IMG/VR virus record: IMGVR_UViG_3300020404_001765
Location: 1 to 60,030 of that record
Strand: one strand, 5' to 3'
Origin: a virus
DNA length: 60,030 nt
The notes beneath the pieces are model-generated. The model searched no databases. It was given only the letters and a program-made list of their open reading frames with translations, and was not told the DNA's origin. Every line of letters begins with the position of its first letter. The first letter of the stretch is position 1. Made by a program: the position numbers and the translations under genes. Below are positions 34,551 through 58,050 of the stretch, in pieces.

Positions 34551-35187
34551 TCCACAGCACCACTTTGAAACGTTCTTTATCTATGCCAAAAAATTTAGTT
34601 TTCCATTCACTCTGTTCAAAAAAGCCTAATGGATACCATTCTTCTTTACGTGCCAACATAGTTTTAGCACGATCATTCCAGTCCTGTTTCAACAGAAATT
34701 GCTCCATGGATGCTTTTTTATCGGCAATTTCTTTATAGTCAAAACCGTCATATTCCCAATGCAATAGTTCAAACACATTTCCCTGCTTGTCGCAATAGTC
34801 AATACTGAAATCCAACCCCCATTTAGGTTTCATTGCAACCAATTTATATAGATGTGGCTCTGCTTTTGCCCATAATGTAAGTTGTTCTAGAGCATCACCA
34901 GAAAAGCCTTTACGTTCAAACATAACAGCATGATTGATATGAGGACCATCTTGTTCATTGATATCAGTGAACCATGTCTGTCTTAAAGTGATGTGTTCTC
35001 TGTCACGATGTTTTGTTGTGTATCTGGCATTTGCCACTGCGTATAGTTGCTCCAGTTTAGTTAGATCATAGCCGTTCTGGTCAAACAATTCTACTGCTTC
35101 CTTTGGAGGACAAGCGAAAACTGTTTTTATTTTTTCGGTCCAACAAGGTTGCGGATCAAATTGGTTTTTTGTCACGTGCAGTTGCAT
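34546..35187 (-). CDS. Conserved phage protein, unknown
   Basis: 213 residues, soluble. Segments ITLRQTWFTDINEQDGPHIN and PKWGLDFSIDYCDKQGNV are conserved-looking; the C-terminal half is aromatic. The start follows ATAATTA plus five bases (CGTGT), exactly as at 9664. No domain recognised. Confidence 0.65.
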   Translation of the reverse strand: MQLHVTKNQFDPQPCWTEKIKTVFACPPKEAVELFDQNGYDLTKLEQLYAVANARYTTKHRDREHITLRQTWFTDINEQDGPHINHAVMFERKGFSGDALEQLTLWAKAEPHLYKLVAMKPKWGLDFSIDYCDKQGNVFELLHWEYDGFDYKEIADKKASMEQFLLKQDWNDRAKTMLARKEEWYPLGFFEQSEWKTKFFGIDKERFKVVLWK

Positions 35188-35192
35188 ACACG

Positions 35193-35199
35193 TAATTAT
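35193..35199 (-). promoter_or_regulatory. Late-promoter-like ATAATTA before 35187
   Basis: ATAATTA, five bases, then ATG; identical over 15 bases to the site before 9664. Confidence 0.35.
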
Positions 35200-36051
35200 C
35201 TATTTTTGTGGATCTAAATCGTTAGTATATTTGTCTTCTGCAGGTAATTCTACTTCTTCACCTTCATCAAACTCTGGGTCAAGCATAGGCACTTCACCGT
35301 CATCGTCTTTTTCATCTGATTTGTCTTCTGCTTCTTTGTCATCTTCTTTTTCTTTTGCATGTGGCTCAGATGTGTTTCTGTCTGTTTGTACACCATCGAC
35401 TACTTTTTCGTCTACTTGCTCTTCTTCTGCAGGTGCTTCGGCCTGTTCGGCGTCTGCAATGATTTCAGTAGTTTCTGGAGTCTTGACAAGAATATTTTTT
35501 TGTTCTTCATTGTATACTGCTTCATTGTCTGAGATTGTGTTGTAAAGTTCCACAAGTTGAGAATCTTCTGCGTTCTTGACATACTCTGCGATATCTTTTG
35601 TAACAACTTCTCTGAATGATTTTGAATCATATGTTTGCTCTTCTTTTTGTTCTGCTTTTAGTTCTGCTAATTGTGTTTCTAATTCTGCAATTTTATCTAA
35701 TCTGTTTACTGCTTCTTTTACTTCTCTTTTAATTGAAGTTGCTAAAGATTCATCGGCATCTGCTTCTTTAATTGCTTTAGTAATTACTGATTCCGTTTTT
35801 GGCTCTTGCGTGATAGATTCTACAAGTTTTTCTGCCTTTGGTGATACTTTTGTTTGTTCTACGTATTCCTTGATTCCAGCCAACTTGGCAATGTCTGCCA
35901 ATGAAATGTCTTTATCATCTAACACTTTAGGCTCTTTGTTTGCCGCTTCCATAAGTTCTGAACGCTCTTGTTCAGGAGTCATATTGCTCATTGCGTTTAA
36001 ACGAGCTACTAGGTCTCTAAAACTTGTGTCTGCTGATTTTTTTGTTGCCAT
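35200..36051 (-). CDS. Acidic scaffold-like protein
   Basis: 283 residues, very rich in Glu, Asp, Lys and Ala. Coiled-coil helices (NRLDKIAELETQLAELKAEQ) are followed by a strongly acidic tail. The composition is like phage prohead core proteins, but no homologue is recognised. It has a perfect TATAAATA late promoter six bases before the start, so it is a late gene. It contains an LME-A run (residues 33-36) that could serve as a prohead-protease site. Confidence 0.55.
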   Translation of the reverse strand: MATKKSADTSFRDLVARLNAMSNMTPEQERSELMEAANKEPKVLDDKDISLADIAKLAGIKEYVEQTKVSPKAEKLVESITQEPKTESVITKAIKEADADESLATSIKREVKEAVNRLDKIAELETQLAELKAEQKEEQTYDSKSFREVVTKDIAEYVKNAEDSQLVELYNTISDNEAVYNEEQKNILVKTPETTEIIADAEQAEAPAEEEQVDEKVVDGVQTDRNTSEPHAKEKEDDKEAEDKSDEKDDDGEVPMLDPEFDEGEEVELPAEDKYTNDLDPQK

Positions 36052-36057
36052 ACGAAG

Positions 36058-36065
36058 TATTTATA
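36058..36065 (-). promoter_or_regulatory. Perfect TATAAATA late promoter before 36051
   Basis: Identical to the T4 late consensus. Six bases (CTTCGT) then ATG, so a leaderless start is predicted. Confidence 0.75.
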
Positions 36066-36077
36066 AATGTTTTGCGT

Positions 36078-37949
36078 TTATTTAATTTGTTGTTCTAGTC
36101 TTATTGCCAGTTTTGATTCGTATGCAAGTCCTTCCGTTTGGATGAATTTACTATATTTGCTCTGCATACTTTTGACAAAATTTAGATCCTTGCCAGAACT
36201 CAACCTGACTTTGACTGCTGAAAGGTCTTTTTCAATCATATTTGCAAGTTCGTCATTGCCTTGATCCTGTGCCAATTCTAATGCTTTCTCCATAGCCGCC
36301 ACTGCCGGCACACTTCTATCTATGGCATCCTGTATAGACCCTACTCCGGCCAACCCTGCCACAATTACGCCCGCCATTGCTAGGTTTTTTGCCCAGTCCT
36401 TTATGCCTTCTTGCATTTGTTCGTCGTCTTTAAGATGTTTGTCTTTGATCTTTCCAATCTCTTGGTGTGAGGCACCTTTGCCCGCCGCACTTTGTATGGC
36501 CTTCATTCCAGCCTTGCCGTATTTCTTTACTCCTGCTCTGTACAGTATTCCACTTTCGTTTGCTTCGTCGTCCTTCATGGCATTTTTAGTTGCAGTCGCG
36601 TACATCACTGCTTCTGCGTCCTTGCCATATCTCTTCTTGAATCCTGCTTTGTTCTTCTTCATGCCTTTGACGATCTTTTCTCTCTTGTTCATTTCGCCCT
36701 TGGTCATGCTTCTACCTGATGTGCTGTGTTGGCCACCGTGTGCTTCGTCTGTGTTTTTTCTATTCTCTTTGGCCATTTTTTTCTCAACTTCGTTAACTCT
36801 TTTGGCAAGTATCCTCATCATGCCTGGTTTAGTATCAACATCATCAAGGCTAGTTTCTCTAGCCAATATTTCATCAATATTTTTTTGCACTATGCCTGCG
36901 TGTCTTTGTAATACGCTGGAATCAAGTTCTTCTCTGTATGGATTAAGTTTCTGATATTCTTCGTAGTTGTGTACACCCTGTAGATAGTCCGCCGCTTTGT
37001 TCAGTTTGCTCTGCACCCAACCCTCAAGATCATCACCCTTGTTGATCATGTCCATTAACTCTATCGCATACTTGGCAGTGTGGTACAATGTGCTTTTGCT
37101 CATGTGTCCCTCGCCTGCGTCTTCTGAAACTGATTCGTCTCTATTGTAAAGATAATCATAGGCATCACCTAATTTTTTATCATCCATAAAATCTGAACCC
37201 ATCGCGTCTGACAGTGCGTCAATCATATTCATAGTAATAGGCAAATGTTCTTTGTTGTGAATTTTATCAAAGAAGTCGTCGTCTGCCTGTTCGGCGTCGT
37301 ACATACTGTCATATCCATATTTCTTTAATGCGGCTTCTAACTCGTCATCGTCTATTCCATCTGTACCAACACCAGTCTGCAATCGCATCAGCATATAACC
37401 TTTCGGTAGGCTATCACCGTTTCCACCGACACGATTTCCATACTTTGCTTGAACCATGTCTAGTGCTTTTTTCTGTTGATCTGTGAGAGAGCCTGCGTCT
37501 TCGTCAAACTTGCCGATTTCTTCTTGGTCACTGCCTGTCTGATCTAGGAATTTCAAATCCTTTGCAAAGACATCGTTTTCACCTTGATCCTCACCGTATG
37601 AGATTGTGTAGATGTCTCCATCTTCATCTGGTGTGAAGTCTACTATCCTTACGATCCTGCCTGATTTAATTTCTCTTGCGTAGTCACCGATCTGTTCTCT
37701 TGATTCCGTCATGCCACCGTCATCGTATAGTCCGGCCTTCTCGCCCTGCATGTAGCCATGCACTTTTTTCACATAGTCACCTGCTAGGTCTATCTTCTTT
37801 GCTACCCATGACTCCATCTCCGCCGCATCGTCTATCATGTTGTGTATCTTGATCGCATGTTTACCAATCTTAAGCAATTGGTTCAAGGCCATTGAAGCCT
37901 CGTATGTGTCTGGTTTGACTGGTTGGTTATGTAATTCGTTAATCTTCAT
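36078..37949 (-). CDS. Large tagged late protein with repeated modules
   Basis: 623 residues from the start at 37949 (MKINELHNQ). Two copies of one helical module are seen: SWVAKKIDLAGDYVKKVHGY near residue 50 and GWVQSKLNKAADYLQGVHNY near residue 307. Later come the basic module KGMKKNKAGFKKRYGKDAEA and AGVKKYGKAGMKAIQSAAGK, both common in marine T4-like phage virion proteins. Between modules lie MTESR, MQEGIK and QTEGL runs that resemble prohead-protease sites. One membrane-like helix (AMAGVIVAGLAGVG) near residue 540. It may be cut into separate parts. Confidence 0.65.
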   Translation of the reverse strand: MKINELHNQPVKPDTYEASMALNQLLKIGKHAIKIHNMIDDAAEMESWVAKKIDLAGDYVKKVHGYMQGEKAGLYDDGGMTESREQIGDYAREIKSGRIVRIVDFTPDEDGDIYTISYGEDQGENDVFAKDLKFLDQTGSDQEEIGKFDEDAGSLTDQQKKALDMVQAKYGNRVGGNGDSLPKGYMLMRLQTGVGTDGIDDDELEAALKKYGYDSMYDAEQADDDFFDKIHNKEHLPITMNMIDALSDAMGSDFMDDKKLGDAYDYLYNRDESVSEDAGEGHMSKSTLYHTAKYAIELMDMINKGDDLEGWVQSKLNKAADYLQGVHNYEEYQKLNPYREELDSSVLQRHAGIVQKNIDEILARETSLDDVDTKPGMMRILAKRVNEVEKKMAKENRKNTDEAHGGQHSTSGRSMTKGEMNKREKIVKGMKKNKAGFKKRYGKDAEAVMYATATKNAMKDDEANESGILYRAGVKKYGKAGMKAIQSAAGKGASHQEIGKIKDKHLKDDEQMQEGIKDWAKNLAMAGVIVAGLAGVGSIQDAIDRSVPAVAAMEKALELAQDQGNDELANMIEKDLSAVKVRLSSGKDLNFVKSMQSKYSKFIQTEGLAYESKLAIRLEQQIK

Positions 37950-37950
37950 A

Positions 37951-38523
37951 TTAATTAAATCCAAAGTGTGTGACTTCAGGATACTTCGCTAAAACTTTCC
38001 TTGCTATCTCGTTGTGTGCTTTGACCATTTGGTTCATGTAACCTTCTGGCTTGCCACCTGATATCATGTTGCCGTCTCTGGTTGCTGGTTCTTCGGGACT
38101 TCTTTTTCCGATGTTCTTTTGTAACCACTGCGTGGTTCTGGCTATGAATTCTTTTGCTGGTACTGGACTCATGTCTTCGAAATCACTATCGTATCCAAGT
38201 GCGTCAAGGAACTGTCTCATACTGGCGTTGCTCATGTATGGACTCTCTACTTCCTCGTCATCTTTATATGCGTCTGGGAAAGTCCACAAATTCTGTTGTG
38301 TTGGATGTTTGTGGTAAGCAATCATTTCAGCACCTTCTTTGATTGATTCGTCCTTTATCAAATTGTGTTGATGTTTCTGCAGGTCAGCCATGTTATCAAA
38401 TGTACCTGTTAGTTTACCGTGTCTGTATGAGTAGAATTTGCCGTCCTTGTTCCTTGCGGCAAGTCCGTATTTGTTCATGCCCCTGTCTGAATTGTCTTCT
38501 GTTTTAAATTCATGGAATCTCAT
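37951..38523 (-). CDS. Tagged late protein, unknown
   Basis: 190 residues from MRFHEFKTEDNSDRG at 38523, the M-R-x-x-E-F tag form. It has a DSIKEGAEM-like run (IKE-G) and a short C-terminal fold ending VLAKYPEVTHFGFN. A late promoter (AATAAATA) lies five bases before the start. Ends one base before the next start. Function unknown. Confidence 0.65.
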   Translation of the reverse strand: MRFHEFKTEDNSDRGMNKYGLAARNKDGKFYSYRHGKLTGTFDNMADLQKHQHNLIKDESIKEGAEMIAYHKHPTQQNLWTFPDAYKDDEEVESPYMSNASMRQFLDALGYDSDFEDMSPVPAKEFIARTTQWLQKNIGKRSPEEPATRDGNMISGGKPEGYMNQMVKAHNEIARKVLAKYPEVTHFGFN

Positions 38524-38528
38524 ATCAA

Positions 38529-38536
38529 TATTTATT
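38529..38536 (-). promoter_or_regulatory. AATAAATA late promoter before 38523
   Basis: Five bases (TTGAT) then ATG. It overlaps the stop of the Cys-rich mini-gene. Confidence 0.6.
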
Positions 38537-38699
38537 ACGCACAGGCTACGCAACGACAGTGCTTACAAACCTCAATTTCGTACTTGTTTGACCCGTCTAT
38601 AGGGCTATGTTTTTCAGTTCTTTTACAAACCTTACCACAATGACTGTCGCAACCACAATTTTCACATTTAATGGGGTCAGTGAGTACTAATGGTTCCAT
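38535..38699 (-). CDS. Cys-rich mini-protein, metallothionein-like
   Basis: 54 residues with nine Cys: KCENCGCDSHCGKVC in the first half and VCKHCRCVACA at the end, plus two His. The spacing (CxxCxC, CxxC, CxxCxC) suggests metal binding like small metallothioneins or zinc ribbons. The start shares one base with the upstream stop (TAATG), and the stop overlaps the late promoter of the next gene. It lies in the tagged locus, close to the SOD gene. Confidence 0.6.
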   Translation of the reverse strand: MEPLVLTDPIKCENCGCDSHCGKVCKRTEKHSPIDGSNKYEIEVCKHCRCVACA

Positions 38700-38962
38700 T
38701 ACCTTTTAATCCCCGGCCCACCAAATAAACTTACACCCGGCATTGCGTGGGCACCTTTGGCAGTGCCATTAGGATTTTTAGGTTGCACTATTTTTGGTAA
38801 TTTTGGTGCTTTTGTTCCTGATCTGCCTGGAGATCCTGTGAATGATTTTTTGAATCTGTCTCTACCTATAGCGATGTGTGGACTTACAACAGTGGCAATG
38901 TTACCTGCCGACGTGGCTCCCGCTGTGGCTTGTTCTCGCATGATTACTTCGTTGATTTTCAT
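38699..38962 (-). CDS. Small tagged basic protein
   Basis: 87 residues from the start at 38962 (MKINEVIMREQATAGATSAG). The rest is rich in Gly, Lys, Pro and Ser (KKSFTGSPGRSGTKAPK), probably disordered and basic. A GATAAATA late promoter lies six bases upstream. A gene upstream (39737) ends 62 nt inside this one. Possible internal DNA-binding virion protein. Confidence 0.6.
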   Translation of the reverse strand: MKINEVIMREQATAGATSAGNIATVVSPHIAIGRDRFKKSFTGSPGRSGTKAPKLPKIVQPKNPNGTAKGAHAMPGVSLFGGPGIKR

Positions 38963-39737
38963 TATCAATATTTATCAAACCATAATAGTCGGCATAACAC
39001 AAAAAGTCACTCTCAAAAATGACTCGGGTTTTTTTTGGCGGCGTACTTCTTATATCTCTGTGTGGATCAAGCATCAACACGCCGTATTTTTTTATTAAAG
39101 GTATTGTAAATTCTTTTTGCCCACCATACCAATCCTCATACCTTGCAGTTGGCCAACGCACAGGTTCTGTGTCATCACCTTTCCTAGATGCCAGTTCATT
39201 GGTAGTATAATACAGATATACGTGATCTGCATAGGGCAGTTTTTTCTTTATCCTTCGTTTTTTTGATATCAACGCTAACCTATTAAGTTTGTCCCGTGTT
39301 AATAGTTTTTTTGGTAAAAGACAGAAACATTTAAACTTTATTAAATTAGATTTGGTCATGAAGCCATTTGTGTAATTTGTGTTGCTGTCATTGATCCTGA
39401 ACGTGAAGTTATCAGCGAGTTGTGATCCTTCTAATTCGTAATAAAGTAATTTTTCCGGACAAACTAAACGTGCGCCGTCCTTGTTAACTAATTCAGATAC
39501 GTGAGGATGTTTGTTTTCTGTTGTAGGTGGCAGGTCATATTCATACTCGTAATGACATTCTTTAGAATATTTCAAAAATGTTTGATTCATTTCTTGCATA
39601 GACCAAAAGTTTTTTCTAACCGAAATACTTTCTTCAAGGTCGATATCATCAATTAACCTATTGTTTGCGAATATTTGTAGGTTTATAGGCTCTTTGTATT
39701 TTTTGAATTCTAAAAAAACTAGTAACACATATTGCAT
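38901..39737 (-). CDS. Late protein with N-terminal beta domain, unknown
   Basis: 278 residues from MQYVLLVFLEFKKYKEP at 39737. The first 45 residues look like a beta strand pair (INLQIFANNRLIDDIDLEES). The C-terminal part has WYGGQKEFTIPLIKKYGVL and DPHRDIRS. It overlaps the downstream gene by 62 nt, longer than usual here. The start follows ATAATTA plus five bases (CACAC). Function unknown. Confidence 0.6.
   Translation of the reverse strand: MQYVLLVFLEFKKYKEPINLQIFANNRLIDDIDLEESISVRKNFWSMQEMNQTFLKYSKECHYEYEYDLPPTTENKHPHVSELVNKDGARLVCPEKLLYYELEGSQLADNFTFRINDSNTNYTNGFMTKSNLIKFKCFCLLPKKLLTRDKLNRLALISKKRRIKKKLPYADHVYLYYTTNELASRKGDDTEPVRWPTARYEDWYGGQKEFTIPLIKKYGVLMLDPHRDIRSTPPKKTRVIFESDFLCYADYYGLINIDNENQRSNHARTSHSGSHVGR
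38969..38976 (-). promoter_or_regulatory. GATAAATA late promoter before 38962
   Basis: Six bases (TTGATA) then ATG. It lies inside the 3' end of the 38901-39737 gene. Confidence 0.6.
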
Positions 39738-39742
39738 GTGTG

Positions 39743-39749
39743 TAATTAT
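39743..39749 (-). promoter_or_regulatory. Late-promoter-like ATAATTA before 39737
   Basis: ATAATTA overlapping the TAA stop of the upstream gene; five bases (CACAC) then ATG. Confidence 0.3.
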
Positions 39750-40516
39750 TTTTTCTTTTTTCGCCCCGACTTCATGTTGGCACACCAGTGATACATTTTT
39801 GCACGTTCACCTGATGCTTTTTTTGCCTTACTTCTTAATGATGTGACTGATCCCTTGCAACTTGCACCTGCACGTTTCACACGTCCTGGCCTGCTTTTGC
39901 CTTTGCGTTTACCGTCCGCAAAGTTTTCCAGGAAATCGGCAAATTCTTCTCGCATTGTTTTTGGCTTGCCTTTGCCTAAATGTAGTTTTTTAATATTCAT
40001 GTATTCACCACCAACTGGCACGTCTTTCGTTGCATTTTGTTTTGTTACTATACCAACACCTGCGGCTTCTTCTTTAACACAGTTAGGCACCATTTTGTTG
40101 CCTTTTTTCTTGTAGCCTTTTTGTTGATATCCATGCCAACAACTGCCCCTTGCTTCATCCAGTTCCGGATGATATTCCCATTTCACATTTTTAGCATCTT
40201 TGGAAACTGATTCTCCATCTATTTTAATTTCAATAGGCATTGCCTCGTTGGGATTCTGATACCAATAGTATGTGTCATAACTGCCGTCTTTGTTGCTAGT
40301 GACAACTAATCCTCGTGTGTGTTCCTCGTCATCTGCTTGTAATATCATTTTTTTTCCGGTAGGTAGTTTGAGATCAGGACTATGCTCATCTTCATTTGCT
40401 TTGTTGTTGCCCTTGTTTTTGAAATCAAATCTATTATTAGGTCCTTTACCCGGTTTGTGTATTAGGCCCATAGGTTTAATTGTTTGTGGCATTATTATAA
40501 ATTCTTTGATTTTCAT
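39746..40516 (-). CDS. Tagged late protein with basic Cys module
   Basis: 256 residues. Tag MKIKEFIIMPQ. Then an N-terminal acidic-basic part, a beta region (LVVTSNKDGSYDTYYWYQN), the Cys module RGSCWHGYQQKGYKKKG ... PNCVKEEA (like the one at 32814), and a C-terminal GASCKGSVTSLRSKAKKAS ending RKKKK. The start codon overlaps the Lys-rich end of the upstream gene (ATGA). Likely internal virion protein; function unknown. Confidence 0.65.
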   Translation of the reverse strand: MKIKEFIIMPQTIKPMGLIHKPGKGPNNRFDFKNKGNNKANEDEHSPDLKLPTGKKMILQADDEEHTRGLVVTSNKDGSYDTYYWYQNPNEAMPIEIKIDGESVSKDAKNVKWEYHPELDEARGSCWHGYQQKGYKKKGNKMVPNCVKEEAAGVGIVTKQNATKDVPVGGEYMNIKKLHLGKGKPKTMREEFADFLENFADGKRKGKSRPGRVKRAGASCKGSVTSLRSKAKKASGERAKMYHWCANMKSGRKKKK

Positions 40517-40908
40517 TTCTTTTTCTTCCTACCTGCACAATGCGCCTTTTGTGAAAATCCTTTTGGATTATTACAGTTTATAGATTTTTTATATTTTGTA
40601 CTCCACTTTTTTGCTTCGTTGCTTTGTGTAACTGGTGGTACTTTAGATCTTTGATTGTCCTTGGGGTCAGTTTCTCTTGCACCTCTTTCTTTGGCCGCTT
40701 TTGTTAATTTTCCTTTAACCAAATTTCCTGTCTTCGTAAAGTAAGTGCCTGGTGGTGCTTCTTTAGTTTCTTTTTTAACTCTGTATGGATATGCCATCAT
40801 AGGATAATATCCCATACGCATTTTCTTTTTACCTAATTTTTTGATTACTTTATCAACATCGCCGTGAACATAATCAGTAACGTATTCTGTTATCTCACGT
40901 ATCTTCAT
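40513..40908 (-). CDS. Tagged late protein with CAGR-type basic module
   Basis: 131 residues. Tag MKIREITEYVTDY; the C-terminal KKWSTKYKKSINCNNPKGFS then QKAHCAGRKKKK is a compact two-Cys basic module also seen in virion proteins of related phages. The Lys codons at the end supply a purine run before the next start. Confidence 0.65.
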   Translation of the reverse strand: MKIREITEYVTDYVHGDVDKVIKKLGKKKMRMGYYPMMAYPYRVKKETKEAPPGTYFTKTGNLVKGKLTKAAKERGARETDPKDNQRSKVPPVTQSNEAKKWSTKYKKSINCNNPKGFSQKAHCAGRKKKK

Positions 40909-40914
40909 TTCTTT

Positions 40915-41133
40915 TTATTTTTTTTCCACTAGGTTGATTAGATCTTGTACTGTCTGCACTTTGTCACCATCGTCCTGTGATATTTTTACGCCTGTGGCTT
41001 TCTCTACCTGTATCACCAGTTCTACTGTGTCAAATGAATCTGCATCTAAATCGTTTACTAAATGTGCTTCTGGAGTGACCTTGCTCTCCGCAACGTCTAG
41101 GTGTTCTGCTATAATTTTAATTACTTCTTTCAT
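40915..41133 (-). CDS. acpP: Acyl carrier protein
   Basis: 72 residues. The phosphopantetheine site is Ser in DLDADSFDTVELV, with the usual VNDLDADS and acidic helix pattern. ACP carries acyl chains for lipid or fatty-acid synthesis, and in this locus could carry acyl groups used by a virion or injected enzyme. The start overlaps the flavodoxin gene stop (ATGA). It lacks the late tag, so packaging is not suggested for it. Confidence 0.85.
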   Translation of the reverse strand: MKEVIKIIAEHLDVAESKVTPEAHLVNDLDADSFDTVELVIQVEKATGVKISQDDGDKVQTVQDLINLVEKK

Positions 41134-42038
41134 TTCTTTTTATTTTTGGCTTTGGTTTTCTTCTTCATGGAGTTGATAAACTTCCTGTAGATGGCCGCTG
41201 GCCCTGATTTGCCTGCCGCTCTTGCTCTCTGCTCCATGGCAACTGCCGCTTGTATTTTGTGTGCGTGTGATCTACCCGATTTCCTAATCTTTGCAACACT
41301 TGACCTTGCCGCCGCTTCATCCTTGAATCCTAATCCATGGATAGTGCCTTTTGGATCTTCATCCGTGTATAGGTCACTGTGTTTTTTAGACTTTGCTTTT
41401 TGTCCCTTTTTACGTGGTATCCTCTTGCCTTCGGTAAGATCTTCATTTATATCAACAGAACCGTGCCTACCGTCTTTTGCCGGATTGCCTTCTTTCAAAA
41501 CCCTTGCCCATGCAGTCATGTTAATTGCACAGTTTTTGACTTGATCAACAGTGTCTTGGTCATCTAGTATTTCATCTAGGCCTTGTGCCTTAGATTCTAC
41601 ATTTGCCTGTGGCACTATTGTGAATCCAAAGTTAGATGCGAAACTGTAAAGGTTGCCATGTATTTTTTGGAATCCATCTCCACCACCCGATATCAATGAA
41701 CCAAACACTTTATTGTAAAAAGGTTGATGCTTGTTTTCTTTTGACCAGTTGTATATGGGATCCATTCTTTCCATAATTGCTTGAATGTGTGAACTCTGTC
41801 CACTCCACCATATAGGTGTTGCAAAAACAACGCCGTCTGCCTTAAACATTTTCATTAATTCTGGTTTCAACTCATCATTAATATCAACAGTACCTCTTTC
41901 GTAATTCAATTCTCTCATCGTGATTACTTCGCAGTCTTGCCCTAATTTTTCAAATGCAAGTTTCAACATACTTACAACTTTGCTAGTGTTTGATTCTGCG
42001 TCAGGCTTCAGTGTTCCGTTAAAAATTAAAAATTTCAT
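41130..42038 (-). CDS. Flavodoxin-fold reductase fused to a basic virion module
   Basis: 302 residues from [20 protein letters not shown]. The first 190 residues are an NAD(P)H-dependent FMN reductase or flavodoxin fold ([20 protein letters not shown] is the flavin-binding loop). Then [14 protein letters not shown], a prohead-protease-like LTE-G site, joins a C-terminal Lys-rich module ([20 protein letters not shown] and [20 protein letters not shown]) common in marine T4-like phages. The fusion suggests that the enzyme is packaged or cut free in the virion. A few codons upstream are also open. Confidence 0.75.
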
Positions 42039-42589
42039 TTTGTATCTCTCAATGTAATTACACCACAAGCCAATCTGTCACCAGCGTTACCTGTCTTTAA
42101 ACTTTCTTCATCGCCGCCTAACCCTAGGTCATCTTTTTCAGCATGGACTACTATACCTCTTCCAACTACTGATCTATCGCCTATTAAGTCAACCCTGTTT
42201 GCTCTTATTGAAAAATTAGCAACGCCTGATTCTGTTGCTATAATATTTCCAAGATCACCAACATGTCCTTCGTCTCTGTCTCCGTGATTAACATTATCAG
42301 GATTATAGTGGCCACCCATTGATTTACAGCCATCACTCATGTCTCCAAATTCGTGTATGTGGAAACCATGTTCACCCGGTGTTAGTCCGGTAATTGTGCC
42401 TTTGATTAGTGTTGGAGTGCCTGGGGCCTGCATCAGCAAAATACTACCTTTTACCTCGTCGGAGTGTTGTAGATCGCACTGGGCAATCACAGTGGACAAT
42501 CCTTCTGTGATTCCTTTTACCTTGCTACAAGAACATTCTTTTGCTTTGGTTCTAGGACAATGTGTTTCTGTAAATTCTAAGGCTCGCAT
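42035..42589 (-). CDS. sodC: Cu/Zn superoxide dismutase with N-terminal late tag
   Basis: 184 residues. The Cu/Zn SOD core is complete: [50 protein letters not shown] and [10 protein letters not shown] give the copper and zinc His and Asp residues. It removes superoxide. In place of a signal peptide it has the locus tag [11 protein letters not shown] and then [12 protein letters not shown], an ITE-G site that would free the enzyme after residue 31. It is preceded by a late promoter. This suggests a virion-packaged SOD, delivered with the DNA or protecting the particle. Confidence 0.88.
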
Positions 42590-42597
42590 ATTGCGAG

Positions 42598-42605
42598 TAT
42601 TTATT
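42598..42605 (-). promoter_or_regulatory. AATAAATA late promoter before the SOD gene
   Basis: Contains the TAA stop (42601-42603) of the upstream gene; eight bases (CTCGCAAT) then ATG. Confidence 0.65.
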
Positions 42606-42804
42606 TGTTTTTTGGCATTGGCTTTTCGCCAGTGAGTTTAGGTCTTGCAAACCACAATTTAAACCACTCTTGGGTGCCTGGTTTGATGTTGTGCTTTCTT
42701 TGATAACGTGCTTTTTCTGTGCCTGTGTACGACAGATTTTCTCCCATCGAATCTTCAGATTGCTCGGCCACACCTGCTAATTTCTTCAACTCTTCTATGT
42801 CCAT
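42601..42804 (-). CDS. Small conserved late protein
   Basis: 67 residues. [20 protein letters not shown] then [16 protein letters not shown] is a pattern familiar from T4-like marine phages. N-terminal [11 protein letters not shown] is a mild match to the tag consensus. It follows a 59-residue ORF with a one-codon junction (TAAATG). Function unknown. Confidence 0.65.
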
Positions 42805-44131: not shown

Positions 44132-44462
44132 CGTATTCGCCTTGTTTAATATTCTCTATTTCTCTATCAGATATTATTCTTGCAACTTGTTGTCTAGTCT
44201 CTTTTGGAAACATTGTCGAAACATCGTCTTGTGTCGATCCGTACTCTTTGACATACTCTTTTGCCGCATCATCAACTAGATACATCCAAAGTTTTTGTGC
44301 TTTTTCATGATCGTAGATATTTTTTTTAACTTTTCTTTTGATATTTGATATGATGGGCATAAAACGCCTACGGTATAGATCCTCATTGTTCATAATGAAC
44401 GAATCTAGTTCGTTGACTGCGTCGCTGTCTATGTTCTCTTTTATAAATTGTGATGCTCTCAT
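44106..44462 (-). CDS. Small tagged late protein
   Basis: 118 residues. Tag MRASQFIKENIDSD is the closest in the locus to T4 internal-protein signals (MR-x-x-Q-F-I-K-E). The rest is charged and helical. A late promoter lies seven bases upstream. It overlaps the fusion gene by 26 nt. Function unknown. Confidence 0.65.
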   Translation of the reverse strand: MRASQFIKENIDSDAVNELDSFIMNNEDLYRRRFMPIISNIKRKVKKNIYDHEKAQKLWMYLVDDAAKEYVKEYGSTQDDVSTMFPKETRQQVARIISDREIENIKQGEYDAPQGTVS

Positions 44463-44469: not shown

Positions 44470-44477
44470 TATTTATT
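44470..44477 (-). promoter_or_regulatory. AATAAATA late promoter before 44462
   Basis: Overlaps the stop codon of the upstream gene; seven bases then ATG. Confidence 0.6.
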
Positions 44478-48596: not shown

Positions 48597-48602
48597 GTGT
48601 AT

Positions 48603-48630: not shown

Positions 48631-48636
48631 CCTAGC

Positions 48637-48663
48637 AAAAAGCCAGTGTTTATGCGACTTTTT
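48637..48663 (-). terminator. Terminator-like hairpin, second copy
   Basis: Minus strand AAAAAGTC ... GGCTTTTT pair around GCATAAACACT; a U-run follows directly. Its inverted near copy is at 8136-8160. It ends the 48662-49243 operon and precedes a TTGACT promoter. Confidence 0.6.
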
Positions 48664-49243
48664 AGTTGTTTAATTGAATACTTGTGATAGATCCTGCGGT
48701 AATTCCTGTGGCTTTTGCCCTTACCCATACAAAATTGCCTGTGAAATTGGCACTTGATATTGTTGTGCTTTGATCTGTTGTGAATGTTGTGCCCGAGATA
48801 TCAAAAAAATCGTCCTCGGTCGGCGTTGTTGCCAAAGAACCCTGCATTTTAATTGAACCTGTAAGTGTTGTGTCCACCTTATAGGCAACAGTGTGTACTC
48901 CATCTGGTTGTGAAAAGTATCCGTCGCCTTTTTGTTTATCACTAACAAAACCAACATGATCTATGGTAGTATCGGTAGAACCGTCACGTGTTTCTGCTGT
49001 GACAAGTTCTTCGACCACAATGCTCAAACCATCAGTTGCAACACTCTTCACTGTGAATGTTTTGTTGTTATTTGTTGTGCCTGATACAGTGATCAAGTCA
49101 AATTGTGCTAGATTGCTCAGGCTAGTGTCTACTGTACTGATCTTGTATTCACTACCTGTGACTGTAAATGTTGCACCTCCTTCAACCGTGATATCGGCTT
49201 TGTGCGTTTTTTGACTTATTAGTGTTGTGCTTGTCTGTGCCAT
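48662..49243 (-). CDS. Ser/Thr-rich structural protein
   Basis: 193 residues, Thr/Ser-rich, beta-strand composition with GNFVWVRAKATGITAGSI at the end. Proteins of this type (MQGSLATTP ... FFDISGTT) occur among marine T4-like virion proteins. An AATAAATA late promoter lies six bases upstream. Probably a neck or fibre component; not certain. Confidence 0.6.
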   Translation of the reverse strand: MAQTSTTLISQKTHKADITVEGGATFTVTGSEYKISTVDTSLSNLAQFDLITVSGTTNNNKTFTVKSVATDGLSIVVEELVTAETRDGSTDTTIDHVGFVSDKQKGDGYFSQPDGVHTVAYKVDTTLTGSIKMQGSLATTPTEDDFFDISGTTFTTDQSTTISSANFTGNFVWVRAKATGITAGSITSIQLNN

Positions 49244-49249
49244 CGTTGT

Positions 49250-49257
49250 TATTTATT
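49250..49257 (-). promoter_or_regulatory. AATAAATA late promoter before 49243
   Basis: Contains the TAA stop (49253-49255) of the upstream gene; six bases (ACAACG) then ATG. Confidence 0.65.
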
Positions 49258-52480: not shown

Positions 52481-52483
52481 TCT

Positions 52484-52978
52484 TTATCCTTTGTTTGCCA
52501 TGTCCCATCGTAGTTTAGAGACTCTTTTATTAAACGTAATACCGTCAAGGTGATCGCATTCATGCTGGAAGCACTTGGATTCCATTCCGTCGAGTGTTGC
52601 GTTTTTTGTTTGTCCTTGTGTTGTTTCATATTGCACTTCTACTGTCTTTGGCCTTTCTACTTTTAGCCATATATTTTTAAAACTTAAACATCCTTCTACG
52701 TCAATAACTTTCTCTTCACTAAAATTTATAACCTTTGGATTCCAAATTATAGCATGTTTTTTGAATGTGTCAAATGAGTCATGTCCGATAGCAAAGAATC
52801 TTTTGGTAATGCCTACTTGATTTGCCGCAAGTCCCATACCACTTTCATCTAGCATCAGTTTGATATAGTCTCTTTCAAATTTTTCAATATCATCGTATCC
52901 ATCTATGCTGTCATTCTTTTTCCATTCGGTGCTTTTCTGTAGCAGTGTCTCATGTGGGTATTGAAATACTTGTATCAT
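52484..52978 (-). CDS. def: Peptide deformylase
   Basis: 164 residues. All three motifs are present: GMGLAANQVG, VEGCLSFKN and QHECDHLDG, giving the metal Cys and two His and the catalytic Glu. It removes formyl from new proteins. Phage-encoded deformylases are common in marine T4-like phages. It overlaps the DnaJ gene by 4 nt. Confidence 0.95.
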   Translation of the reverse strand: MIQVFQYPHETLLQKSTEWKKNDSIDGYDDIEKFERDYIKLMLDESGMGLAANQVGITKRFFAIGHDSFDTFKKHAIIWNPKVINFSEEKVIDVEGCLSFKNIWLKVERPKTVEVQYETTQGQTKNATLDGMESKCFQHECDHLDGITFNKRVSKLRWDMANKG

Positions 52979-53832
52979 AGGTCCTTTATCTTTTTTAAAT
53001 CCTGTGCAGATAATTGCGGTATCAATATGTGTACTTTGACATATAGGTTTCCACGAATATTTAATGTTTTATGCACAGGCATTCCTTGTGATTTTACTTG
53101 CAACAGAGTGCCAGGTTGTGTTCCGGATGGGACCTTTACCTTAATCACTTTGTCATCTAGTGTTTTAAGTTCTACTTCTGTTCCACGTACCGCTTGGAAA
53201 CAGTCGATTGTTTTGTCTGTATAAAGATCATTACCTTTACGTGTGTAACCATCGCAGTCGAGAACACTCATTTGCACCAGAAGATCTCCACGTGGCATGT
53301 TCCTTATTGAGTCGTCTCCCATTCCAGAAAACTTGAAAGTTATGCCGTGTTGCACCCCTGCTGGTATTTTGACTGTTGCGAATTCCTCTCGACCGGACGG
53401 CAATTTGTAATTAATTGTTTTCTCATGGTTCATCATTGCTTCTTTTAAACTTACTGCCATTCGAACTTGAACGTTTCTATTTCCCTTTCTGCTCTGCCTA
53501 AATGATCTAGGCTGTCCTCCCGAAGAAAAATTAAATTGTACCCCGTCACCTACATTGCCAAAACCAGAAAAAAAATCGCCGAATATATCTTCGTTGAAGA
53601 AAGGATGTTCGCCACCACCCTGTCTAGGCCCACCAAACTTTCGCATGGTGTCATAATCATGTCTCTTCTGTGAACTTTTAAGTGTATTGTGAGCCTCATT
53701 TATTTCTTTGAATTTAGACTCATCTCCTCCTCTGTCAGGATGATGTTTCTTTGCTAGGTCCTTGAATGCTTTAGTGATTTCGGCACTTGTGGACTTTTCG
53801 TTCACACCTAGAATGTCATAATAATTCTTCAT
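52975..53832 (-). CDS. DnaJ/CbpA-type co-chaperone
   Basis: 285 residues. An N-terminal J domain (MKNYYDILGVNEKSTSAE, KHHPDRGGDE with the HPD) is followed by a Gly/Phe region and C-terminal substrate domains, with no Cys-rich zinc finger, so it is the CbpA type. It stimulates host Hsp70 (DnaK). Its start lies six bases after a TACAAT box in a leaderless layout. Confidence 0.85.
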   Translation of the reverse strand: MKNYYDILGVNEKSTSAEITKAFKDLAKKHHPDRGGDESKFKEINEAHNTLKSSQKRHDYDTMRKFGGPRQGGGEHPFFNEDIFGDFFSGFGNVGDGVQFNFSSGGQPRSFRQSRKGNRNVQVRMAVSLKEAMMNHEKTINYKLPSGREEFATVKIPAGVQHGITFKFSGMGDDSIRNMPRGDLLVQMSVLDCDGYTRKGNDLYTDKTIDCFQAVRGTEVELKTLDDKVIKVKVPSGTQPGTLLQVKSQGMPVHKTLNIRGNLYVKVHILIPQLSAQDLKKIKDL

Positions 53833-53838
53833 TACTAT

Positions 53839-53866
53839 ATTGTATAACAGATTGTGTATCTGTCAA
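53839..53866 (-). promoter_or_regulatory. Sigma-70-type promoter placed for a leaderless mRNA
   Basis: Minus strand: TTGACA (53861-53866), 16-bp spacer, TACAAT (53839-53844), six bases (ATAGTA), ATG at 53832. Confidence 0.7.
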
Positions 53867-53876
53867 TGCGTGGTAA

Positions 53877-54197
53877 TTATTTTTTGATTTCGGTCTTCTT
53901 GCCGTTGACGTAAAGTCCAAACCAGGCCGCACCTGCACCAACAACAACAGATACAAAACCTGCCTGTGCATTGTTCGGAGCATCAAGAGCCATGAACCAC
54001 TGCATTGTGTTGTAGAAAACTAATCCATACAATGCCATCATTATTCTCGGCACTGTTCTCCAATTGGATAGGAACTGTGGTAATTCATCTCTTAAGAAAA
54101 CCCAAACGATCTTAATTAATGCCCAACCGTCTTTGGCACCTTTTTTGACCATGCTGTCTTTTTTAACAATAAGTTTATCTTCTTTTAATTCAGCCAT
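53877..54197 (-). CDS. Holin-like membrane protein
   Basis: 106 residues with two membrane helices (PRIMMALYGLVFYNTMQWFM and AGFVSVVVGAGAAWFGLYV) and charged ends, the layout of phage holins. It lies at the start of the lysis-related region. The role is inferred from position and topology. Confidence 0.5.
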   Translation of the reverse strand: MAELKEDKLIVKKDSMVKKGAKDGWALIKIVWVFLRDELPQFLSNWRTVPRIMMALYGLVFYNTMQWFMALDAPNNAQAGFVSVVVGAGAAWFGLYVNGKKTEIKK

Positions 54198-54784
54198 TAT
54201 TTTACACCTTCAATTTTTGCGTTTCTTTTTCTGTGTCCGTTCCAAGCAACAAAGCCACCTGCTCTTAATGACCAGTATGCAAGATAGTTCATTGCATAGA
54301 AACCATTTACTTCAATACATATATCTCTAAAGATTTCATCTGCTCTTTTTTGATCTACTATTAAAAGTGCTCCTTTGCCAGTTCTTTGTAAACAAGCATA
54401 TTTGTAAGCATAGTCGTGTACTAAACCACCCATCAATAATACACCTACTGGTGAGAAGAAAGTTCTTAAAAATTTTGGTATACTTGCGCCATCAAATACA
54501 AAACCTGCTGGTATGATATATTCATTGCCATCTATTCTGTACTTCCAATCTTTTGTTATTTCCCAATTTCTTGTTGAAAGTAACCACATCACTATACCTT
54601 TCCAGAAACCTTTGCCTTTTGTTTTAATTGGTACAGGTTTAAGTTCTGGCATTTCGTCAGCGTGAAAAGTTAAATTGCTTTTTTTCTTTTTATCTAACAA
54701 ATTTATAAGTGCCGCAATTATTACAACAGCGATTAATATCGTCCATTGCCAAAATTTCATTGCAAGTGTTAAAATTAGTTCCAT
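54197..54784 (-). CDS. DUF1353-like protein with N-terminal anchor
   Basis: 195 residues. N-terminal helix (WTILIAVVIIAALINLL) anchors it in a membrane. The domain has GFVFDGASIPKFLR, VGVLLMGGLVHDYAYK and RADEIFRDICI, the DUF1353 pattern found in many phages beside lysis genes. A late promoter and a GGGG run precede the start. Function not proven. Confidence 0.7.
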   Translation of the reverse strand: MELILTLAMKFWQWTILIAVVIIAALINLLDKKKKSNLTFHADEMPELKPVPIKTKGKGFWKGIVMWLLSTRNWEITKDWKYRIDGNEYIIPAGFVFDGASIPKFLRTFFSPVGVLLMGGLVHDYAYKYACLQRTGKGALLIVDQKRADEIFRDICIEVNGFYAMNYLAYWSLRAGGFVAWNGHRKRNAKIEGVK

Positions 54785-54795
54785 GTTTATACCCC

Positions 54796-54803
54796 TATTT
54801 ATT
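54796..54803 (-). promoter_or_regulatory. AATAAATA late promoter before 54784
   Basis: Eleven bases, with GGGG, separate it from the ATG; the only late site here with a possible ribosome-binding site. Confidence 0.6.
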
Positions 54804-55011
54804 ATTTCAATATTATTGCTTTAATCGATTTCTCGCCCATGTAAATCTCAGTTTCTGCTTGACCTTTCCAACACTGATATTTTACACTTTCGCTGTACTG
54901 TCTTTCTGCTTGTCTTTTGCCACGTAGGCACTTTGCCATGTTGTCTTGTATTCGGTGTTCTTTTATCTCACCATTAACAAACATTAACAAGGCTACAACT
55001 GATTCTATCAT
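54802..55011 (-). CDS. Small protein of the lysis region, unknown
   Basis: 69 residues, with a short hydrophobic N-terminus (VVALLMFVNG) then polar residues with two Cys. Overlaps its neighbour by one base. Function unknown. Confidence 0.6.
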   Translation of the reverse strand: MIESVVALLMFVNGEIKEHRIQDNMAKCLRGKRQAERQYSESVKYQCWKGQAETEIYMGEKSIKAIILK

Positions 55012-55454
55012 TAGTGCGTTCCATTCCCGTTCTTGTAAACAATTTCTCTGTCAGCATCTTTCAACTTTTCTATGTTTCTTTGTGCCTTTTCCATTTGCTC
55101 TTTAAGGAACTCGATGTTCACTTTATTGTTTGCCATGTCGTCTAAATGCTTTTGCATCCTGTCTACTGTTTTATAAAGATCCTCGATCAACATGAATTGT
55201 TCAATGTCCTGCGAACTTTGACCTAACTCACCTCTTGGATATTTGATTCTGAATTCAGTGTTCTGTTTGACTTCGTTGTGTAGTCTTTCATCCTCAGCAC
55301 TCATGTCTTTCTCAATCAACACTGTATTTGTTTCTAACTTGTTGAGTCTTTCTATTACTCCAAAGTATGCCCAAACTCCAACGGCAACTGCGGCCACGAT
55401 GGACAACAGATTCCGCATCGGCATTGAAATTGATGTGCTATCACTGATCTTCAT
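55011..55454 (-). CDS. Membrane-anchored coiled-coil protein
   Basis: 147 residues. N-terminal helix (LLSIVAAVAVGVWAYFGV) then a long coiled coil (IEFLKEQMEKAQRNIEKLKD). Similar proteins follow the lysis genes in related phages; it may be spanin-like. Late promoter eight bases upstream. Confidence 0.6.
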   Translation of the reverse strand: MKISDSTSISMPMRNLLSIVAAVAVGVWAYFGVIERLNKLETNTVLIEKDMSAEDERLHNEVKQNTEFRIKYPRGELGQSSQDIEQFMLIEDLYKTVDRMQKHLDDMANNKVNIEFLKEQMEKAQRNIEKLKDADREIVYKNGNGTH

Positions 55455-55462
55455 AATAGTAG

Positions 55463-55470
55463 TATTTATT
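55463..55470 (-). promoter_or_regulatory. AATAAATA late promoter before 55454
   Basis: Contains the TAA stop of the upstream gene; eight bases then ATG. Confidence 0.6.
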
Positions 55471-55861
55471 GAGTATTACCAGAATCTTCGTAGTACTTTT
55501 TGTATTCCTCAAGCAGGTTATTGGTTTCCTGCAGTTTCTGTCTGATCTGTGCGAAGTTTCTAGCAAGTACCTGGAAGTCCTTGTCTGTGATTCCGAACAG
55601 CACGGGGTCTATGCCTGCGTCCTCTAGTTTCTTGAATACTTCTTCTGCGTTTTCACTAGTGATAATGTGCCAGTAAATCTCTTCCATCTGCAACGGAGTT
55701 GGCATCTCGTAGTTCAATTTCTCCCTTGGCTTCTCAACAGAGAATATCTTGATCTTCTTTTCACCACCTATACTACATCCTGATAGTAACATACAAATCA
55801 TCAGTGGTACTGCCACTATCCATGCTAGTCTATAAGTTTTATCTTTATTGGAATGGTACAT
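55466..55861 (-). CDS. Lipoprotein, outer-membrane spanin-like
   Basis: 131 residues. The signal ends in a lipobox (MICMLLSGC), so it is a lipoprotein, and the C-terminal half is helical and charged. Placed beside an Rz-like coiled-coil gene (17-nt overlap), it fits an o-spanin or other lysis lipoprotein. Confidence 0.55.
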   Translation of the reverse strand: MYHSNKDKTYRLAWIVAVPLMICMLLSGCSIGGEKKIKIFSVEKPREKLNYEMPTPLQMEEIYWHIITSENAEEVFKKLEDAGIDPVLFGITDKDFQVLARNFAQIRQKLQETNNLLEEYKKYYEDSGNTQ

Positions 55862-56318
55862 AATTTGGATTTGCTAGTGCCGGGCACTCTGGGTTAATTT
55901 CTGATTTCAAAGTTGCTTTTAATTCTTCTTCCGTGTGTTCGGCACCTGATGCCAACTCTATACATCTAGCCGCATTTTTACCGCCACCGTTAACAATACG
56001 TTCAATTGATTCGGTTCTTTCGATTGCCAGTTTACCAATGTCTCTGTTTTTCTTTGTGAATCTTTTGTCTAGGTCTCGTAAATCTTTCTTAAATGTGTTG
56101 ATCAATACATTAAGTTTTTTATTACTTTCCATTATTGCTGTGAAGTCTTTTTTCTGTTGCTCTAACACTTTGTTCTGTTCTGCAACCGCTGTTTCAAGTT
56201 TGAGTTGATTTGCTTTCAAAATCGCATTGTCTGATCTCAATTTCATCACATACATACCCGCACCGGCTATACCTGTGATAAGGATCACTGCAAAAATCAT
56301 TTTAATGCTTGAAAACAT
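55845..56318 (-). CDS. Rz-like inner-membrane spanin candidate
   Basis: 157 residues. One N-terminal helix (MIFAVILITGIAGAGMYVM), then a long coiled coil (LKLETAVAEQNKVLEQQKKD). This is the usual i-spanin layout, and it overlaps the lipoprotein gene. A late promoter lies eight bases upstream. The call depends on topology and context. Confidence 0.55.
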   Translation of the reverse strand: MFSSIKMIFAVILITGIAGAGMYVMKLRSDNAILKANQLKLETAVAEQNKVLEQQKKDFTAIMESNKKLNVLINTFKKDLRDLDKRFTKKNRDIGKLAIERTESIERIVNGGGKNAARCIELASGAEHTEEELKATLKSEINPECPALANPNYVPFQ

Positions 56319-56326
56319 AATGTACG

Positions 56327-56334
56327 TATTTATT
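56327..56334 (-). promoter_or_regulatory. AATAAATA late promoter before 56318
   Basis: Contains the TAA stop of the endolysin gene (56330-56332); eight bases then ATG. Confidence 0.6.
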
Positions 56335-56791
56335 GGATAAGACCAGGCTTGTAAACAGTCTTGCCATTCTCCTTCATTGCAGTCAATATGCTTTTGCGAT
56401 TACCTTCTGCTTTGTATGAAACGTGTACCCAACCGGAGTCAGGTATGCCTGGCGTATAAAATTCTAATATCAATTGATCGAAGTCACAGTTTTCTGATAT
56501 CCATTTTGCAACATCGTAATTGCCTGTGCCTGGACATTCGATATCTACTGCTTCACCTTTGCAGTGTTGTGATTTGCTTGAGCCACCCACTGCTTCATTT
56601 AGTGCTGGTCCTCTGTATCCTGAATTAATTACAGTGACGCCAAAGTTGTCTCTAACTTTTTGGACAACGTTCTCAAACAATGCTTTTGCATTTTCTAAAT
56701 GTTCGTCGCCGGGAGTGTTATCTAAGCCTTTCCTAGTGGCAGTCTGACTTTTAGTAAATTCTGCTAATGTGAAGTTTGCACTTAATCTCAT
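56330..56791 (-). CDS. Peptidase M15-type endolysin
   Basis: About 153 residues from MRLSANFTLAEFTKSQTATR at 56791. VINSGYRGPALNEAVGGSSK then SQHCKGEAVDI gives the M15_3 zinc site (SxHxxGxAxD) and SGWVHVSY the second His. It cuts peptidoglycan cross-links for lysis. A GATAAATA late promoter lies five bases upstream. Confidence 0.85.
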   Translation of the reverse strand: MRLSANFTLAEFTKSQTATRKGLDNTPGDEHLENAKALFENVVQKVRDNFGVTVINSGYRGPALNEAVGGSSKSQHCKGEAVDIECPGTGNYDVAKWISENCDFDQLILEFYTPGIPDSGWVHVSYKAEGNRKSILTAMKENGKTVYKPGLIQ

Positions 56792-56796
56792 GCAAC

Positions 56797-56804
56797 TATT
56801 TATC
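56797..56804 (-). promoter_or_regulatory. GATAAATA late promoter before the endolysin
   Basis: Five bases (GTTGC) then ATG. Confidence 0.6.
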
Positions 56805-56823
56805 AATATGTGCGTATATTATT

Positions 56824-57564
56824 TTACCAGCCTGATTTGCTTAATAATGCAGATTCTCCGCCTTTGCTGAAAATGAATCTGTCTTCTGTAGTTTTTGTTA
56901 TTTGATAAGGCCCAAAATATTTTGTCATCCACATGCACTCGCTCATCGCTTCTGCGTCCAACCTAAATGCTTTAATTTCGTTCATGATGTTTTTAGTTGT
57001 GCCAAACGAATGCAATTCGAATTTGAGTGTGTCTGCGTTGTGTTTTTTCACAGTCATGACATTTTCATTAAGTTTGAATTCCATCATGTTAAATTTGTCA
57101 AAAAAACCTTTTACCTCGCCTAATTTTAATTCTTCTACTTTTTGTGTGTATGCTTCTGGTGTCTTAGGCAGTACGTCAGCAAGATTTTTCATAGAAGCCT
57201 CCATTGGAACTGTGCCCTTGTGATATGTAAATTCAAATGTTTCAATGTTGGTTAGTTTTGCAAGGTCTTGTAAAAATTTCATAATGTGTTGATCAACTTG
57301 TTCTACTCTTGCAAGTTCGATGAATACCCTATGTTTGCCATCTTCCATTGTTCCAGGAGTTGCATCAGCATCTAGCACTTCTTTGTATCCGGTTTCTGCA
57401 AATCGCTCTAAATCTTTAGCCGCCGCTTGACTATCTGCTGTGAACGCCAACACCAAGATGTTCTTGTCATCTCCCATCTTGGACTTATATTGATCTACGG
57501 AAAATCTTTTGCCGACTATTCCTTCGAGATCTCCGGCTTTCAATCCTTCATTAACTAATATCAT
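56824..57564 (-). CDS. Late protein, unknown
   Basis: 246 residues, soluble alpha-beta, with ILVLAFTADSQAAAKDLERF, FTYHKGTVPMEASMKNLAD and YQITKTTEDRFIFSKGG. No domain recognised; probably virion-associated given its CTAAATA late-type motif and neighbours. Overlaps the next gene by 14 nt. Confidence 0.6.
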   Translation of the reverse strand: MILVNEGLKAGDLEGIVGKRFSVDQYKSKMGDDKNILVLAFTADSQAAAKDLERFAETGYKEVLDADATPGTMEDGKHRVFIELARVEQVDQHIMKFLQDLAKLTNIETFEFTYHKGTVPMEASMKNLADVLPKTPEAYTQKVEELKLGEVKGFFDKFNMMEFKLNENVMTVKKHNADTLKFELHSFGTTKNIMNEIKAFRLDAEAMSECMWMTKYFGPYQITKTTEDRFIFSKGGESALLSKSGW

Positions 57565-58033
57565 TTAAACTATTTAGATCTCCAGGTGCCTCGTCTGTTT
57601 CGTCCTGGCTGTCGATCTCATCCTTACCGTGTTTGAAATTTCCAATTAATTCTTTTGGCATTTTAATTTCTACTATCCAAATATCATGTGCATCTATTTT
57701 GCCTTTAGTCGTTCCTGGTCTGTAATCTTCTGGTCCTTTGATTTTTCTCGGTTTTAACAATTCATCTTTTTTATATGACACTTTACATCCTCTGTCAAGC
57801 AATCTCTTACCTCCACTAGGATCCGGCATCTTGTCTATCGGCCACATAAAAGAGCAAGTTACAAAATGTCTTGAATCTATAGGGCCAGACAGTAACTCAC
57901 CGTCTTGCCAGTTTTCAAATACGTACACATCCAACTCATCTATCACACGTTCAAAGTCCTTTAGTATGCCTAAAGTTGGACCAACCGCGTATAATGATTG
58001 TGCGTTTTTGATTATGTCTAGTACATCATGCAT
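57551..58033 (-). CDS. Late protein, unknown
   Basis: 160 residues with a Lys-rich centre and an acidic tail (DEIDSQDETDEAPGDLNSL). GPIDSRHFVTCSFMWPIDK is a strongly patterned central part. GATAAATA lies nine bases upstream. Function unknown. Confidence 0.6.
   Translation of the reverse strand: MHDVLDIIKNAQSLYAVGPTLGILKDFERVIDELDVYVFENWQDGELLSGPIDSRHFVTCSFMWPIDKMPDPSGGKRLLDRGCKVSYKKDELLKPRKIKGPEDYRPGTTKGKIDAHDIWIVEIKMPKELIGNFKHGKDEIDSQDETDEAPGDLNSLNDIS
57571..57577 (-). promoter_or_regulatory. CTAAATA late-promoter-like motif before 57564
   Basis: CTAAATA, six bases (GTTTAA), then ATG. Confidence 0.4.
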
Positions 58034-58042
58034 TGCAAGTGT

Positions 58043-58050
58043 TATTTATC
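58043..58050 (-). promoter_or_regulatory. GATAAATA late promoter before 58033
   Basis: Nine bases then ATG. A CTAAATA on the plus strand begins at 58051, facing away, so the site may be bidirectional. Confidence 0.55.

Follow-up and report, generated by a model that had tools for sequence, protein, structure and literature searches.

Many late genes in a large group of T4-related phages are likely expressed from gp55-type promoters placed so close to the start codon that the predicted mRNAs would be leaderless or nearly so. This reading comes from the sequence of a 60,030-nucleotide stretch of viral DNA (IMG/VR record IMGVR_UViG_3300020404_001765, positions 1 to 60,030; hereafter, the window) and of its relatives. 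T4-type late promoters and leaderless mRNAs are both known already, and what is new, at the same good level of likelihood, is their combination in a T4-like late regulon. As we propose it, the boxes would function as T4-like gp55-type promoters late in infection, RNA polymerase would start either at the AUG or no more than some 4 nt ahead of it, and ribosomes would recognise the 5'-terminal AUG instead of a Shine-Dalgarno (SD) site. A regulon of the T4 type would then be split between leaderless and SD-leadered mRNAs. A first-pass annotation of the window had already pointed to leaderless late mRNAs, and this is now supported by a floor in the box-to-start spacing, the use of ATG starts, a contrast in SD content, evidence that the starts are real, and the presence of gp55.

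The DNA polymerase encoded at 29555-32218 of the window is closest, among named phages, to that of Sinorhizobium phage Phosso, with 50% identity; Agrobacterium phage Atu_ph07 comes next at 46%, ahead of the RaK2-like jumbo phages at about 42%. IMG/VR holds 477 stretches that encode relatives of this polymerase, the best 80 of the 477 at 91-94% identity, and 45 loci for a ClpA-like ATPase with 74-100% identity. The polymerase and ATPase relatives together place the window in a large uncultured group of T4-related phages, here called the clade, which is probably marine to judge by its metagenome sources and relatives. Only one contig from a bacterial genome was found to carry the polymerase (81% identical): NZHE01000019.1, from the metagenome-assembled genome of Rickettsiales bacterium MED657, which has the same kind of box-ATG junctions. 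It offers a weak hint of an alphaproteobacterial host, or else reflects a binning error.

The minus strand of the window, on which the genes concerned lie, contains 12 copies of the exact motif ATAAATA; the plus strand contains none. Each copy precedes an ATG that opens a reading frame of 87-283 aa, with a spacing of 5-9 nt at 11 of the 12 and of 11 nt at 54784. Boxes 5-11 bases before 12 listed ATGs had been claimed in the first-pass annotation, and every coordinate was borne out. The boxes and their variants are as follows.

58043..58049, minus strand: ATAAATA box, 9 nt before the ATG at 58033; virion structural protein (phrog_12928).
57571..57577, minus strand: variant box CTAAATA, 6 nt before the ATG at 57564.
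56797..56803, minus strand: ATAAATA box, 5 nt before the ATG at 56791; M15 peptidase/endolysin.
56327..56333, minus strand: ATAAATA box, 8 nt before the ATG at 56318 (Rz-like spanin); the TAA of the box also ends the upstream gene.
55463..55469, minus strand: ATAAATA box, 8 nt before the ATG at 55454; its TAA is the upstream stop.
54796..54802, minus strand: ATAAATA box, 11 nt before the ATG at 54784; tail assembly chaperone family; SD-like AGGGG; the upstream stop overlaps the box.
49250..49256, minus strand: ATAAATA box, 6 nt before the ATG at 49243; its TAA is the upstream stop.
44470..44476, minus strand: ATAAATA box, 7 nt before the ATG at 44462; the upstream stop codon overlaps the box.
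42598..42604, minus strand: ATAAATA box, 8 nt before the ATG at 42589; Cu/Zn superoxide dismutase.
39743..39749, minus strand: variant box ATAATTA, 5 nt before the ATG at 39737; retained in the three distinct orthologs shown.
38969..38975, minus strand: ATAAATA box, 6 nt before the ATG at 38962.
38529..38535, minus strand: ATAAATA box, 5 nt before the ATG at 38523.
36058..36064, minus strand: TATAAATA box, the full T4 consensus (these 7 bases plus the T at 36065), 6 nt before the ATG at 36051.
35193..35199, minus strand: one-mismatch box ATAATTA, 5 nt before the ATG at 35187, at the edge of the range covered by the first-pass annotation.
34543..34549, minus strand: ATAAATA box, 6 nt before the ATG at 34536; its TAA is the upstream stop.
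29552..29558, minus strand: variant box CTAAATA, 5 nt before the ATG at 29546; gene downstream of the DNA polymerase, with an ortholog (L066) that is alike.

Chance placement is ruled out: with 3.3% of window positions falling 5-11 nt upstream of any ATG that opens at least 60 codons, the probability that all 12 boxes would do so is about 1.4e-18. General AT-richness was likewise rejected, as 7-mers of the same composition average about 1-3 matches per clade genome at 5-9 nt, and the highest of them, AATAAAT, is the ATAAATA box shifted by one base. When single substitutions were tested, five variants (ATAAGTA, GTAAATA, TTAAATA, CTAAATA, and ATAATTA) proved enriched 5-9 nt before clade ATGs, where 13-32% of their sites lie, compared with 1-3% for most other substitutions. 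Such variants also precede the starts at 9664, 39737, 29546, 57564, and 21651 of the window, beyond those listed in the first-pass annotation. Two starts share an identical upstream sequence, AGATAATTACGTGT-ATG, at 9664-9678 and 35187-35201; this may be a variant late box or may belong to another promoter class. The Cu/Zn superoxide dismutase gene (42035-42589; Pfam Sod_Cu, E 1e-44), follows a late-type box, an arrangement conserved in relatives, and its start-codon junction at 42585-42597 is a near-perfect palindrome that reads CTCGCATATGCGAG in relatives and CTCGCAATATGCGAG in the window.

The late box of T4 is 8 bp long with its first base at -13 (PMC2988020), which by our arithmetic ends it at -6 and makes the sixth base after the box the transcription start. 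Because T4 late RNA starts at that sixth base, a spacing of 5 puts the A of the AUG at +1, and at any shorter spacing the transcript would lose part of the AUG; spacings of 5-9 nt give predicted leaders of 0-4 nt, by an offset that is borrowed from T4 and could differ for the longer gp55 of the clade. The IMG/VR relatives contain 275 exact ATAAATA boxes, of which 227 are followed by the ATG of a reading frame at a spacing of 5-9 nt and none at 0-4 nt. Similarly, distinct orthologous junctions with a TAAATA core number 141, and 140 of these fall at 5-10 nt and none below 5 (21 at 5, 42 at 6, 32 at 7, 39 at 8, 5 at 9, and 1 at 10 nt, with the remaining one at 25). The spacing thus has a hard floor at 5 nt, which is where leaderless transcription would predict it.

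We scored SD sequences with a uniform criterion, the duplex energy with the anti-SD. Across the window and four relatives, an SD is present at only 1 of 60 starts with a box at 5-9 nt, compared with 14 of 22 starts with a box at 15-35 nt and 260 of 727 unboxed starts (p 2e-9 and 6e-10, respectively, values that overstate independence given the shared ancestry of clade members). This lack is partly automatic, because a box at short spacing fills the place of an SD; what counts is that the short-spaced starts have no other SD site, whereas starts with distant boxes do carry SDs. In the window, the first-pass claim that no SD fits except at 54784 holds, the AGGGG at a spacing of 11 being the sole SD-like case. 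The start codons themselves also differ: in the same five sequences, short-spaced boxes are followed by 58 ATG and 1 GTG, and SDs by 149 ATG and 27 GTG or TTG (p 0.004). The near-exclusive use of ATG after boxes fits expectation if translation here requires a 5'-terminal AUG (PMC3616915).

Alignment of homologous junctions, proposed in the first-pass annotation as a check, revealed that box and ATG are kept while the spacer between them changes and slides. Both elements are conserved in 39 of 39 orthologs of the gene at 49243, 14 of 14 at 34536, and 12 of 12 at 36051, and all distinct orthologs shown for 35187 have TAAATA at or near the place of the box. Of the 37 orthologs of 54784, 36 have TAAATA 18-30 nt upstream with an SD, often GAGGAG, in between. 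The base at -13 of the aligned junctions is A in 57%, G in 24%, and T in only 9%; since T4 itself has A at nine sites (PMC2988020), the scarcity of T lowers only the identity to the exact consensus. Over codons 2-10 after box-adjacent ATGs, comparison of the window with its orthologs gives a pN of 0.164 against a pS of 0.438, so the protein is under selection from its first codons onward.

These data bear on whether the apparent starts are simply wrong, with true starts lying downstream after a normal leader. Some of the genes do contain internal ATGs, yet codons 2-10 are under purifying selection and the N termini align from the box-adjacent ATG across relatives. Moreover, five starts checked in the cultured phage HTVC008M, at 16007, 18916, 19456, 31132, and 49760, match the GenBank annotation exactly at the box-adjacent ATG. 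Selection at the N terminus and the annotated HTVC008M starts lead us to reject wrong start codons, an explanation to which we give almost no weight. From this evidence, the box-adjacent ATGs are the true and conserved starts.

Several of the junctions are compact. At 34536, 49243, 55454, and 56318, where the upstream stop codon is the TAA of the box, stop, promoter, predicted transcription start, and start codon fit within about 12-18 bases, and at 44462 and 54784 the upstream stop overlaps the box. Overlap of stop and box also occurs in T4, there with leadered genes, so it is not unique to the clade. Such compaction raises the alternative that the boxes are indeed late promoters but that most translation of the adjacent genes takes place on longer transcripts from upstream, through stop-start coupling (reinitiation), so that the short transcripts matter little. 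An upstream gene stops 9-32 nt ahead of the ATG at eight of the 12 window boxes, including the four in which the stop is the TAA of the box, and several junctions lie 9-13 nt after the upstream stop codon; translational coupling on longer transcripts could thus serve some junctions. However, at the other four boxes no upstream gene ends within 150 nt, the criterion used here, and the ATG at 58033 is about 350 nt from the end of the next same-strand reading frame while its orthologs retain the ATG with TAAATA-type boxes. Coupling also predicts neither the floor at 5 nt nor the near-absence of GTG and TTG starts, and we regard it as an unlikely main route.

Less probable still is that the box is no promoter but an AU-rich signal in the RNA, which would assist translation beside the start codon on leadered transcripts. 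AU-rich, unstructured start regions can aid translation that lacks an SD (PMC3121790). Against such a signal, the motif is the T4 late consensus and is highly specific, with most single substitutions abolishing the enrichment, and the same motif stands 15-35 nt away, with an SD in between, before other genes of the same phages. The clade also encodes gp55: homologs (phrog_12791) are present in four clade contigs with E below 1e-83, and none lies within the 60-kb window, which is itself a fragment. With a T4-derived profile, the clamp gp45 was found neither in the clade contigs nor in the sequences of RaK2 and Atu_ph07 examined. Leaderless translation is reported to be inhibited by IF3 (PMC9031893), which is encoded by Phosso, Atu_ph07, 2.275.O, and RaK2; no IF3 match above the cut-off was found in 25 clade contigs or in HTVC008M. 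T4 and PA5oct, which are leadered, lack IF3 too, so it does not provide a clean explanation.

The genes with short-spaced boxes include those for virion structural proteins, the spanin and endolysin, the adaptor, a baseplate wedge protein, and terminase, along with several of unassigned function. Within one relative, G003, they are found at the gp25-like wedge protein, head-tail adaptor, and spanin genes, and a variant box stands 7 nt before terminase gp17. In G003, SDs precede the genes for the major capsid protein gp23, the sheath gp18, and the tube gp19, and its fibre-like proteins have both SDs and boxes at 19-24 nt. Among the short-spaced genes of HTVC008M are those for the tape measure, a baseplate initiator and a wedge subunit, the tail tube cap, and the DNA end protector. 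The reach of the first-pass reading is narrower than the whole late regulon: many late genes are predicted to be leaderless, but structural genes with high-copy products retain an SD. If copy numbers are those generally known for T4 virions, these few genes suggest that SD leaders serve high-copy products and leaderless mRNAs low-copy ones, and 54784, in the tail assembly chaperone family, is an exception in keeping an SD. The likely purpose, as far as so few genes indicate, would be to make many low-copy late proteins from very short junctions while high-copy proteins keep the SD leader. More speculatively, the two mRNA classes from one promoter type may set late output, leaderless for low-copy virion and lysis proteins and SD-leadered for high-copy ones. 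In this tentative scenario, the arrangement would have arisen independently in marine jumbo phages and SAR11 myophages, perhaps matching host translation habits or a shift in ribosomes late in infection.

If leaderless late expression is true of the clade, it provides a case in which many genes of a T4-like late regulon are leaderless, and it would mean that some 10-15 bp of junction can accommodate a late promoter together with the start points of transcription and translation, and even the stop codon of the preceding gene. Because one sigma factor would govern neighbouring genes with and without SDs, the phages would offer a natural system for studying when leaderless translation works in marine bacterial hosts. 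There is also a warning here for gene callers that rely on an SD and for promoter scans that presuppose a leader, since both will misjudge starts of this kind. As HTVC008M is a cultured phage, the arrangement is directly testable.

We compared the arrangement with known systems by applying one procedure to sixteen genomes or fragments and classing boxed starts as short (5-9 nt) or long (15-35 nt). The short/long counts in the clade are 11/0 for the window, 12/5 for G001, 10/6 for G002, 16/8 for G003, and 11/3 for G004. Eight T4-like controls gave 0/22 (T4), 1/18 (S-PM2), 0/13 (S-ShM2), 3/16 (P-SSM4), 0/4 (phiM12), 2/37 (Atu_ph07), 2/25 (PA5oct), and 0/17 (RaK2). The first-pass annotation had called leaderless late mRNAs unusual for a T4-like phage, and the totals of 60 short and 22 long in the clade versus 8 and 152 in the controls agree (p 3e-29, with clade members non-independent). 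Long spacing predominates in all eight controls, so the arrangement is not shared by T4-like or RaK2-like phages in general. Phosso yielded two pattern matches versus two control matches. The counts grade from HTVC008M (11/4) through Mosig (7/17) to Melnitz (3/17), three phages of which two infect SAR11 and one OM43. The control and HTVC008M counts indicate that the nearest cultured relatives of the window phage lack the arrangement, which reappears in a separate lineage; T4, the cyanophages, and the cultured jumbo relatives have leadered late promoters. In the open-licence papers searched, no T4-like phage, HTVC008M included, is described as having leaderless late mRNAs.

The late promoters of T4 itself (TATAAATA, with gp55, gp33, and gp45) resemble those of the clade in the box core, the expected start offset, the gp55-family sigma factor, and the structural and lysis genes they precede. 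They differ in that none of the 25 boxed T4 starts has its box at 5-9 nt, most being at 15-35 nt, and 23 of the 25 have an SD, whereas in the clade 5-9 nt dominates without an SD and position -13 is usually occupied by A or G rather than T. The RaK2-like jumbo phages CBB and GAP32 share the ATAAATA motif before structural genes, and it is reported as a late motif at 35 places in CBB (PMC5259590). The RaK2 sequence tested, by contrast, has no boxed start at 5-9 nt; its boxed starts at 15-35 nt number 17, and 14 of these have an SD. To our knowledge, the known leaderless cases in phages are single genes, whereas in the clade a dedicated late promoter would make a large share of the late regulon leaderless. 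Leaderless mRNAs of bacteria and phages, such as lambda cI and those from 171 leaderless start sites in Sinorhizobium meliloti, resemble the clade junctions in lacking an SD, in starting with AUG, and in a 5' end at or beside the AUG, which is predicted for the clade (PMC3616915; PMC9031893). A further likeness is to HTVC008M, a T4-like Pelagibacter phage with a SAR11 host, in which 11 starts have a box at 5-9 nt, one of the 11 with an SD, and four have a box at 15-35 nt, all with SDs. It differs in belonging to another lineage (Kyanoviridae), in its 147-kb genome, and in a spacing that is mostly exactly 5.
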